Shown here one piece after another: positions 57,149 to 60,441 of a stretch of DNA of 64,000 bases. The translations under genes and the position numbers were made by a program. Numbering within the stretch: position 1 is the first letter of the stretch; each line of letters begins with the position of its first letter. This DNA comes from Blattabacterium cuenoti (lineage in GTDB: Bacteria > Bacteroidota > Bacteroidia > Flavobacteriales > Blattabacteriaceae): contig NZ_CP059219.1 in assembly GCF_014252395.1 (NCBI RefSeq), positions 172,610-236,609 on the forward strand. Reading direction: 5' to 3'. Under the pieces are notes generated by a model, which was not told the origin of the DNA, did not search any database, and worked only from the letters and a program-made list of their open reading frames with translations.

Positions 57149-58555
57149 TCATATATTTTTAGCTAATTCTAAAGCTTTAAATAAAGCCATTAATTTATTA
57201 TTCACTTCCTCTAATTCTTTTTTTTCTTTAGAATCAGAAACAATACCTGCACCAGCTTGAAAAAAAAGAGTATTATTTTTACTTAAAAAAGAACGAATAA
57301 CTATAGCTGTATTGATATAAGAATTATTTAATCCAAAAAAACCAATAGCACCTCCATATATTCCTCTATGTTGATTCTCTATTTTATCTATTAATTCCAT
57401 TGCTTTATATTTAGGAGCTCCTGAAAGAGTTCCAGCAGGAAAAGTATCACCAAACACTTTTATAAGTGATATATTATTTTCCAATTTTCCAGATACTTTA
57501 GATACCATATGTAATACATGAGAAAGAATTTGTATTTCTTTAAATATTTCTACTTTTACATCGGAAGAATTTTTACTTAAATCATTTCTAGCTAGATCTA
57601 CTAACATAATGTGCTCTGCATTTTCTTTTGGATTATTTATAAGATTTTTAGATAACTTTTTATCTTTATTTTCAATATTTGATCTTCGTATAGTTCCTGC
57701 TATTGGATTAATATAGGCTATATGATTATTAACAACTAATTGTGATTCTGGAGAAGATCCAAATAATTTATAATTTCCATAATCAAAATAAAAAAGATAT
57801 GAAGATGGATTTATAAATCGTAAAGCACGATATACATTAAATTCATCCCCTCTAAATTTTTGTTGAAATTGACGAGATAATACTATTTGAAATACATCAC
57901 CACGTAAACATGCTTTTATTCCTTTAGATACCATTTTTTGGTATTCTATATCAGTAACATTTGAAGATCGATTTCCTATAGATTGAAATGGAAAAGATGG
58001 AAAATTTTTCTTTTTTATTAATTCAATTAAATGATTAATAGAAGTATCTTTTTTTTCAGAAAACTGATGTTCAATTAAATGCATCTCATTATGAAAATGA
58101 TTAAATATAATTAAATTTTTATAAAATCCAAATCTTATTTGTGGTAAATTATATATTTTCTTAATAGGAGCATAAAATTTTATTTTTTCAAAATATTGAA
58201 TACTATCATAAGATATATATCCATATAAACCAGAATAAAAAATTGAATAATTATCACTTGTAAATTTTTTAAAAAAATCTTCTATTAAATTTTGTATATC
58301 TAATTTATTTTTTATAAAAATATGTTTTTGAATCCAGTTTGGATATGATATTTTTAACACATTTTTATCTAGAATAAATTCAGAAACTGGATTAATACAA
58401 AGAATAGAAAAATTATTTTTGTAATTTTTATAATTAAAAGTTTCTAATAATAATGTTTTTGGAAAAAGATCTCTAAGTTTTAAATATAATTCTATTGGAG
58501 TAGTACTATCAGCTAAAATTTTTTTCTGAATAGTTCTAAAACTAAATTTGAACAT
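57149..58555 (-). CDS. trpE: Anthranilate synthase component I
   Basis: Converts chorismate to anthranilate, the committed step to tryptophan. The 468 residues have the chorismate-enzyme core: GDVFQIVLSRQF, INPIAGTIRR, DLARNDL, TFPAGTLSGAPK and FFQAGAGIV. The N-terminal allosteric segment reads LLLET (Thr39), where the enterobacterial motif is LLES. The second allosteric segment reads NPSSYLF (residues 249-255), where enterobacteria have NPSPYMF. First gene of trpEGDCFBA, behind a structured leader. Confidence 0.98.
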   Translation of the reverse strand: MFKFSFRTIQKKILADSTTPIELYLKLRDLFPKTLLLETFNYKNYKNNFSILCINPVSEFILDKNVLKISYPNWIQKHIFIKNKLDIQNLIEDFFKKFTSDNYSIFYSGLYGYISYDSIQYFEKIKFYAPIKKIYNLPQIRFGFYKNLIIFNHFHNEMHLIEHQFSEKKDTSINHLIELIKKKNFPSFPFQSIGNRSSNVTDIEYQKMVSKGIKACLRGDVFQIVLSRQFQQKFRGDEFNVYRALRFINPSSYLFYFDYGNYKLFGSSPESQLVVNNHIAYINPIAGTIRRSNIENKDKKLSKNLINNPKENAEHIMLVDLARNDLSKNSSDVKVEIFKEIQILSHVLHMVSKVSGKLENNISLIKVFGDTFPAGTLSGAPKYKAMELIDKIENQHRGIYGGAIGFFGLNNSYINTAIVIRSFLSKNNTLFFQAGAGIVSDSKEKKELEEVNNKLMALFKALELAKNI

Positions 58556-58693
58556 CGTTCATGGTATTTTTACATGATGAAAAAAAAAGGCTGTCATAAA
58601 GACAAGCCAATATTGTTTGAGACAAACATATATCAATATGTATCTTGAAAGAATACCATTTTTTCTTTAGAAAGAAATGACATTAACCTTATG
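58556..58693 (-). promoter_or_regulatory. Structured trp operon leader RNA
   Basis: About 135 bases between the -7 box and trpE. In order: a possible 16-codon ORF (58633-58683, MSFLSKEKMVFFQDTY, no Trp), a small UUUCUU/AAAGAA stem, an ACAUAU/AUAUGU stem, a GUUUG/CAAAC stem, the terminator hairpin, and a segment (58561-58568) complementary over 8 bases to 58652-58659. UGUCAU at 58677-58682 could pair with AUGACA in the terminator. Function is inferred, not shown. Confidence 0.6.
58580..58608 (-). terminator. Intrinsic terminator hairpin in the trp leader (attenuator candidate)
   Basis: In transcript sense: GGCUUGUC (58608-58601), loop UUUAU, GACAGCC (58595-58589), then nine U (58588-58580). 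The stem is seven pairs with one bulged U and is followed directly by the U-tract. It lies between the trp -7 box (58694-58701) and the trpE ATG (58553-58555), so it can only act on trp operon transcription. Confidence 0.8.
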
Positions 58694-58701
58694 CAAATAT
58701 A
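58694..58701 (-). promoter_or_regulatory. Putative -7 box of the trp operon
   Basis: The minus strand reads TATATTTG (TAnnTTTG), 138 bases before the trpE ATG and upstream of the terminator hairpin. No clear -33 element is seen. Confidence 0.55.
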
Positions 58702-58761: not shown

Positions 58762-60441
58762 ATGATAATATTAATTTTTTATTTTTTAACTTTTATTCAT
58801 TCTATTATTATTACTACTATTTCTAATCATATAGAAAAAGAAGTAATTAATACAGAAAAAAAAATAAATATTTATTATCCTAATAATGAAGATTACAAAT
58901 TTTGGACAGAAGAAAATGATTTTGAAAAAAAAATTTTAGATATAAAATCATTTTCTATAAAAAAATATTATTCTCAAAATTTTTTTAAAGATGATAGATT
59001 TATTATAAATAATATAAAAAATCATCAAAATAATATAAAAAAAATGTTTCTTTTTGAGGACCCTTTTTTTTCTTATAAAAAAATTAGATATTTTGATGTT
59101 AAAACTCCTATATCAGAAATATTTTATATAAATAATTCTTTTCAAGAAAAAGTATTAAGTGGTTTTTTTTCTAAAAATATAGATGAAAAAATTAATTATT
59201 CTATAGAATATAGAAATTTTTATCTTGCTAAAGATGAGTTTAATTTTGAAAATAAAAAAAATTTATTTTTAAGTACTTTTAATTATAAAAATGAGGATAA
59301 ATATAAATTTTGGAGTCATTATATTCATCAAAAATTCGATATAATAAAAGAAAAAGAAAATACAATTTTAGATCAAAAAATATTTAATTATAATAGATTT
59401 TATGTTGGATTTTTAAAGAAATTTTTTTTTCCTTTAAAAAATTCATTTTTTTTAAAAAATTATATAGAATATTCTAAATTTCATTTTTATCAATTAAAAA
59501 ATAAAATGAATCATTTTCATTTAAAAAATGGATTATTTTTAATTTTAAAAAAAAAAGAAAGTACTATAGAAGTAGGATCTATATTTAATAATAGAAATTA
59601 TTTATCATTTTATGAATATAATAATAAAATGATTTCTAGAAAAAAAAATATAAATAATTTTTCGTTAGCAATGAAAATAAGTTATCCTATTAATAATATT
59701 TTAAAATTTCATTCAGATTTAAAATGGATGTCTAAAAAATATTATTATATAGAAGCCTTATTTAATACATATTTTGATAAAAAATTTCAATTTAATACTA
59801 AATTAAGTATTATTAAAAATGATAATAATTTTATAAATTTTTTGATTTTTAGAAATAATCATAATTATTATAAAAAACAAGAAAATAGATTATTTTTTGA
59901 TACAGAAAAAACAATTAATTTTTCTTTTTTTTATAAAAAAAATTATAATATTATTTTTAAAATATCTAGATTAGAAAATTCTAATAATGAAATGAAAAAT
60001 GATTTTAAACATTACAATAATGTTTATTTAATGTTTAATACAATACATAATATATGGAAATTTCAATTTAATAATATTTTTTTATATCATAAAACTAATT
60101 TAAATTCGTTAATTTTTGATGTACCAAATTTTTTATTAAGAAATACTATATTTTATAAGGATAATTATTTTAATAAAGCTTTATCTATGCAAACTGGTTT
60201 TTCTATTCAATATTTAAATAATTTTTTTTATAAAAAATATTCTTATCCCTTTGATTTATTTACTTTTTATAAAAAAGAAGAATGTTTTTCAAAAAAAATA
60301 GAAGAAGTTCCTTTTATAGATTATTTTATAAATTTTAAAATATATAGAATTATATTTTATTTCAATATTCAACAAAAAAATATTAATAATAATAAAAAAT
60401 ATTTTTTTAAAACTGGTTTTTTATGGAATCTTTTTACTTAG
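58762..60441 (+). CDS. Putative porin (Bacteroidetes beta-barrel family)
   Basis: 559 residues with an N-terminal hydrophobic signal (about residues 1-20), then alternating aromatic and polar segments typical of an outer-membrane beta-barrel, ending in the aromatic KTGFLWNLFT. The segment YFDVKTPISEIFY, followed by LSGFFSKNIDEKINYSIEYR, resembles the start of the barrel in flavobacterial 'putative porin' proteins as I remember them. It is very Asn/Lys/Phe-rich, and divergence is high. It could be the main route for small solutes across the outer membrane. The substrate is unknown. Confidence 0.75.
   Translation: MIILIFYFLTFIHSIIITTISNHIEKEVINTEKKINIYYPNNEDYKFWTEENDFEKKILDIKSFSIKKYYSQNFFKDDRFIINNIKNHQNNIKKMFLFEDPFFSYKKIRYFDVKTPISEIFYINNSFQEKVLSGFFSKNIDEKINYSIEYRNFYLAKDEFNFENKKNLFLSTFNYKNEDKYKFWSHYIHQKFDIIKEKENTILDQKIFNYNRFYVGFLKKFFFPLKNSFFLKNYIEYSKFHFYQLKNKMNHFHLKNGLFLILKKKESTIEVGSIFNNRNYLSFYEYNNKMISRKKNINNFSLAMKISYPINNILKFHSDLKWMSKKYYYIEALFNTYFDKKFQFNTKLSIIKNDNNFINFLIFRNNHNYYKKQENRLFFDTEKTINFSFFYKKNYNIIFKISRLENSNNEMKNDFKHYNNVYLMFNTIHNIWKFQFNNIFLYHKTNLNSLIFDVPNFLLRNTIFYKDNYFNKALSMQTGFSIQYLNNFFYKKYSYPFDLFTFYKKEECFSKKIEEVPFIDYFINFKIYRIIFYFNIQQKNINNNKKYFFKTGFLWNLFT

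Follow-up and report, generated by a model that had tools for sequence, protein, structure and literature searches.

The leader of the trp operon of Blattabacterium cuenoti is probably an attenuator without a sensor, which would now act as a fixed, leaky terminator ahead of trpE. This reading derives from comparisons of sequence and predicted fold that started from a stretch of 64,000 nucleotides (the window) in a genome of 626,430 bases (~626 kb). In the ancestor, as judged from leader anatomy, translation would have produced a short peptide containing tandem Trp codons; a ribosome stalled on these codons would have freed a strand ~20 nt downstream, whose pairing with the terminator (loop and 3′ arm) would have let transcription enter trpE. 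In Blattabacterium the Trp-codon peptide is gone, the promoter box and the terminator having been kept. A constant fraction of RNA polymerases would stop at ~58580 and the remainder would enter the trp operon, so that the leader would set transcription of the operon without sensing tryptophan. We infer in vivo termination, a constant read-through and selection on the terminator to set expression; nothing was identified that would relieve termination in response to tryptophan.

The trpE leader and its terminator

The leader lies on the minus strand of the window, running from 58701 to 58556, and precedes seven minus-strand genes (58555 to 52204) that were named trpE-G-D-C-F-B-A by order and sequence. 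The first of them, trpE (57149–58555, start ATG at 58555), encodes anthranilate synthase component I, an identity backed by Pfam; the names of the six others come from order and sequence. The leader comprises, in order, TATATTTG, ~85 bases, the stem-loop GGCUUGUCUUUAUGACAGCC, a U9 tract, 24 bases and the trpE ATG. The box TATATTTG (58694–58701) is a Bacteroidetes-type -7 promoter element, and transcription would start a few bases downstream of it, at about 58690–58685. Either TATATTTG or TATCTTTG is found at the matching position in most Blattabacterium trpE leaders. Between the box and the terminator lie a conserved element A, UGUCAU (58677–58682), a 16-codon mini-ORF, MSFLSKEKMVFFQDTY (58633–58683), a conserved element B, AUGGUAUU (58652–58659), and a small hairpin seen in fold and alignment, UGUUUG-UCU-CAAACA (58614–58628), whose counterpart in many relatives is AAUAUUG...CAAUAUU. 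The terminator stem-loop (58589–58608) reads GGCUUGUC-UUUAU-GACAGCC from 58608 to 58589, contains AUGACA at 58597–58592 and is followed by the U9 tract (58580–58588). Element D, AAUACCAU (58561–58568), complementary to B, stands directly ahead of the trpE start. All of these features are on the minus strand, where the positions that a previous sequence-only reading had assigned to the box, UGUCAU, the ORF, the terminator, U9 and AUGACA are correct. Its remark that the leader ORF has no Trp codon was likewise borne out within the window.

The leader folds more stably than most of its dinucleotide shuffles, 2 of 200 of which reach so low an energy (z -2.98), and the terminator was assigned -8.1 kcal/mol in a ViennaRNA scan; a simple scanner had overlooked it because of a bulged U. 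Within the window, it is the strongest intergenic hairpin with a T-run pointing into a gene. When the whole genome was scanned in stretches with a cut-off of dG ≤ -6 kcal/mol, 11 intergenic elements of this kind were found, and only two of them, at trpE and ilvD, sit in a 5′ leader and read into a sense gene. The terminator stem is predicted with a probability of ~1.0 for 24 of 26 leaders and of 0.87 for that of the window, and the default state of the leader is hence predicted to be the terminated one.

To describe the conservation of this structure, trpE and its upstream region were compared among 44 Blattabacterium genomes with an intact trpE. In some 30 of these, a good alignment is obtained from the promoter box to trpE. 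Four blocks in it are conserved, namely A (AUGUCAUUU), B (AAAUGGUAUUCUU), the terminator (GAGGCUUGUCUUUAUGACGGCCUUUUUU) and D (AAAAUACCAUAAACCAUG), and the stretches between them differ in length and sequence. The sequence-only reading had called for an alignment of the stem across strains: in 30 species, 96% of the cells of the terminator stem are paired, above all 500 shuffles, with a G-C to A-U compensation at one pair in two leaders. Compensating stem changes were seen in L016, L027, L033 and L037, and the stem is visibly rebuilt with other sequence in several distant lineages (L033, L037, L039). A covariance model built from Blattabacterium terminators alone, R1, matches the trpE terminator of 32 of the 44 genomes, 30 of which served to build it and two of which (L034 and L042) did not. 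Once rebuilt stems judged by eye are included, the terminator is kept in 37 of 44 genomes, with about five changes of terminator state (losses) on the trpE tree. Six of the 44 species have no stem any more and L008 has a weak one; the stem is therefore dispensable at times. The R1 search yielded no convincing further copy of the terminator in the genomes; a weak match that recurs near 495 kb in several species lies antisense inside a coding region and was discarded.

Several other arrangements were observed around trpE. In L018 and L028, tandem duplications around TTTTTATCATGT, apparently independent of each other, have produced a second U run behind the terminator. The trpE of L045 (G014:C1:178800-182300) is a pseudogene interrupted by many stops, and no terminator can be recognised in its leader. 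Four further genomes (G001, G026, G041 and G043) gave a weak trpE match only, which is probably a trpE paralogue.

Ancestry of the terminator and loss of the sensor

All 17 assessable trpE leaders of free-living Flavobacteriales have a promoter box, a WW or WWW peptide and a terminator, AAGGCUUGUC..GACAAGCCUUUUUU. Their leader peptides, of which MKTILNNTWWWNNLRQSS is an example, contain two or three tandem Trp codons and are preceded by the same type of -7 box as the Blattabacterium leader. An R1 search of 110 kb ranked the free-living trpE terminators at the top (E from 8e-5 to ~0.1). The closest free-living trpE, that of L057, has 56% identity, and a string of 15 bases, AATATTGGCTTGTCT, located at the 5′ arm of the terminator, is common to L057 and the window. 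As Blattabacterium also forms a single clade on the trpE tree, these matches indicate that its trpE terminator is homologous to the free-living trp terminators and was inherited.

This leader type of the free-living relatives is the Bacteroid-trp RNA (RF01692), listed as a likely cis-regulatory RNA (PMC2864571). As a positive control, the Rfam gathering cut-off of this family (49 bits) was passed by 13 of 119 Flavobacteriales genomes. None of 49 Blattabacterium genomes exceeded it, and an Rfam search gave no Bacteroid-trp hit in the window and no match of the leader to any family, T-box included; at a permissive threshold, the leader gave chance matches only. The model fails on Blattabacterium because the remainder of the leader has changed. 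From the absence of matches above the cut-off in the window and in the 49 genomes, we conclude that the leader does not belong to the family but descends from a Bacteroid-trp attenuator. The proposal that this is an attenuator layout related to Bacteroid-trp, with its sensor lost, thus agrees with the homology of the terminator and with the genus-wide absence of a Trp-codon peptide, and the Rfam scan suggested along with it did not recover the family.

As for the sensor, no Trp codon is present in the leader ORFs of the window, and tandem Trp codons occur in none of the 40 Blattabacterium leaders with a promoter box. Only two leaders, those of L017 and L036, carry a single-Trp mini-ORF ahead of the terminator; the remaining Trp-containing leader ORFs in Blattabacterium overlap the terminator itself. 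Other candidates were considered and rejected: in nearly all leaders the UGG in element B follows a stop codon or is not in frame, and the start codons or frames of the peptides MSFLK and MVFFN are broken in several lineages. Inspection of the window leader by eye revealed no run of GAG/UAG repeats (TRAP-type).

The antiterminator strand was assessed in the same manner. In free-living leaders, pairing of this strand with the terminator at its loop and 3′ arm beats shuffles in 9 of 16 cases (p ≤ 0.03), reaches -11.4 kcal/mol with z down to -4, and is found at a constant 20–21 nt after WW (for example, GUCGUGA with UCACGAC). In Blattabacterium, the best pairing with the loop and 3′ arm is ~-5 kcal/mol, with z mostly near 0 against shuffled leaders, and pairing with the 5′ arm is not above shuffles (mean z 0.18). 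The antiterminator pairing of L057 is not above chance either, so that the test on the loop and 3′ arm does not discriminate fully, and weakening of the antiterminator strand may predate the symbiosis or have occurred outside it. A local 5′ hairpin, CAUUU/AAAUG, was also considered; it is present in most leaders, but is weak and mostly not above shuffles. Taken from the leader sequences, the loss of the Trp sensor throughout Blattabacterium is well supported.

Alternative roles for the conserved elements

A bare terminator does not need the conservation of blocks A and B that is observed across most of the genus, and both blocks may still do something. One alternative, which we regard as unlikely, is that the leader still works as a switch. 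Here, element A would pair with AUGACA, and a ribosome starting on the mini-ORF, which is near-leaderless and whose AUG is held within A, would cover A and thereby let the terminator form; the input would be translation capacity and not Trp codons. A is indeed present in 26 of the 30 aligned leaders (as UAUCAU in two of these), mostly together with its complement AUGAC; within the aligned set, the terminator GAC has become GGC only in lineages devoid of A (L022, L024, L028 and L025), and the geometry of the pairing is that of the free-living leaders. However, the pairing shows no compensatory change, is not above shuffles (z mostly near 0), is much weaker than the terminator and is disrupted in several lineages. 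Element A disappeared on at least three occasions, the terminator staying in most of the lineages concerned, and the start of the mini-ORF is AUA in L006 and L027, its frame and length varying across Blattabacterium. The competition of UGUCAU with the terminator through AUGACA, put forward in the sequence-only reading, is therefore not supported, having conservation on its side but not covariation. It is less probable still that A, B and the terminator together constitute a working switch re-wired to another input, be it initiation on the near-leaderless mini-ORF or a ligand; such a switch is conceivable because a fixed terminator leaves the conserved A and B unexplained.

Element B could instead act on translation by pairing with D, hiding the trpE start region in the read-through RNA. 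The two elements form eight perfect pairs (~-8.6 kcal/mol) in ~20 leaders, and the helix is within the predicted minimum-energy fold. Against this, D is kept in leaders with a decayed B, most of which have not regained the helix; 87% of the cells are paired, yet compensatory change is seen at one pair only. We hence hold an effect of this kind to be improbable. As a separate observation, AAAAUACCAUAAA ahead of the trpE start (window 58561–58568) is kept in species without the complement B, and may by itself matter for translation initiation.

Alternatively, the hairpin could be a neutral leftover, or could end antisense or spurious transcripts from the divergent gene at 58762–60441. The Blattabacterium leaders have no evident sensor and some lineages have lost the stem and kept trpE, as a neutral element would allow. 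Nevertheless, most lineages of a cockroach symbiosis that dates back more than 200 million years (PMC9603385) have retained or rebuilt the stem, the genome keeps only 11 such elements, and the hairpin points into trpE, all of which makes this explanation very doubtful. Finally, replacement of the peptide sensor by a ligand-sensing RNA (a tryptophan riboswitch or a tRNA-sensing leader) would give a role to the conserved A and B upstream of the terminator, but is highly implausible given that no Rfam family matches, T-box included, and that there is no conserved, covarying aptamer-like fold, RNAalifold giving the terminator alone.

A second leader, the TrpE feedback motif and known systems

The fixed, leaky terminator proposed for trpE appears to have a second case in the leader of ilvD, a gene identified by the Pfam profile ILVD_EDD_N. 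Here a hairpin scan located a terminator, conserved in the genus, CCCUAC..GUAGGGCUUUUU, ~21–22 bases ahead of ilvD in Blattabacterium (G000:C1:95677-95702, that is, L119:15677-15702, plus strand, outside the window). In the closest free-living relative and in others, the ilvD leader encodes an Ile/Val-rich peptide (MRVNNVILSIIILLCQL in L177, MMQISIIITSVVVVNVIHTSASGML in L187) that is followed by a terminator. Among Blattabacterium ilvD leaders, a simple pattern of the terminator was found in 27 of 30, a fold of less than -4 kcal/mol in 25, and no ATG at all in 18 of the 27. Judging from these sequences, the ilvD leader appears to share the history of the trpE leader, with the terminator kept and the Ile/Val peptide gone. 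In one species group, CUAUUCAAGU could pair with ACUUGAUAG of the ilvD terminator at ~-10 kcal/mol.

The enzyme itself was compared at the LLES motif. The TrpE of the window has LLET where its free-living relatives have LLES. The serine is present in 18 of 18 free-living TrpE versus 15 of 44 from Blattabacterium; in the other 29 it is replaced by F (10), Y (7), T (5), I (4), or N, M or L (once each), through at least nine changes on the trpE tree. Loss of the serine predicts a weaker feedback inhibition of TrpE by tryptophan. This is a prediction and not a result, since a paper cited in PMC5054487 reports that tryptophan still inhibits an archaeal enzyme that has no LLES.

Together, these observations suggest that, in an endosymbiont that supplies its host with amino acids, a fixed brake has taken the place of a regulated switch. 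If this is true, it shows how feedback control is taken apart once a bacterium comes to feed its host: the sensor goes and the brake stays, a pattern that would be found in two essential amino acid operons (trp and ilvD), alongside the loss of the TrpE motif serine. It leads to the testable prediction of a set rate of tryptophan synthesis in Blattabacterium, and the 44 species would offer a natural series for which parts of an attenuator survive without their signal. A terminator persisting without its sensor was not described in the literature that we searched, which covered few subscription papers.

Among known systems, the Blattabacterium leader resembles the E. coli trpL-type attenuators in having a terminator in a short leader between the promoter and trpE, and differs from them in that the tandem-Trp peptide is absent and the alternative hairpin is unsupported. 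With Bacteroid-trp RNA (RF01692) it has in common the site ahead of trpE, the type of promoter box and a homologous terminator (AGGCUUGUC...GCCUUUUUU), an intrinsic terminator of the AGGCUUGUC type being present directly ahead of trpE in the Blattabacterium leader; it departs from that family in having no tandem-Trp peptide, no strong antiterminator strand and no match above the cut-off. Buchnera conserves the LLES motif in TrpE (PMC5054487), which most Blattabacterium do not. In Serratia symbiotica, whole amino-acid leaders decay, as is the case for the thr leader (PMC4122931), so amino-acid sensing has likewise been lost in essential amino acid operons. There, however, leader and peptide have eroded together or have been separated from the operon, whereas in most of the genus Blattabacterium the terminator alone persists.
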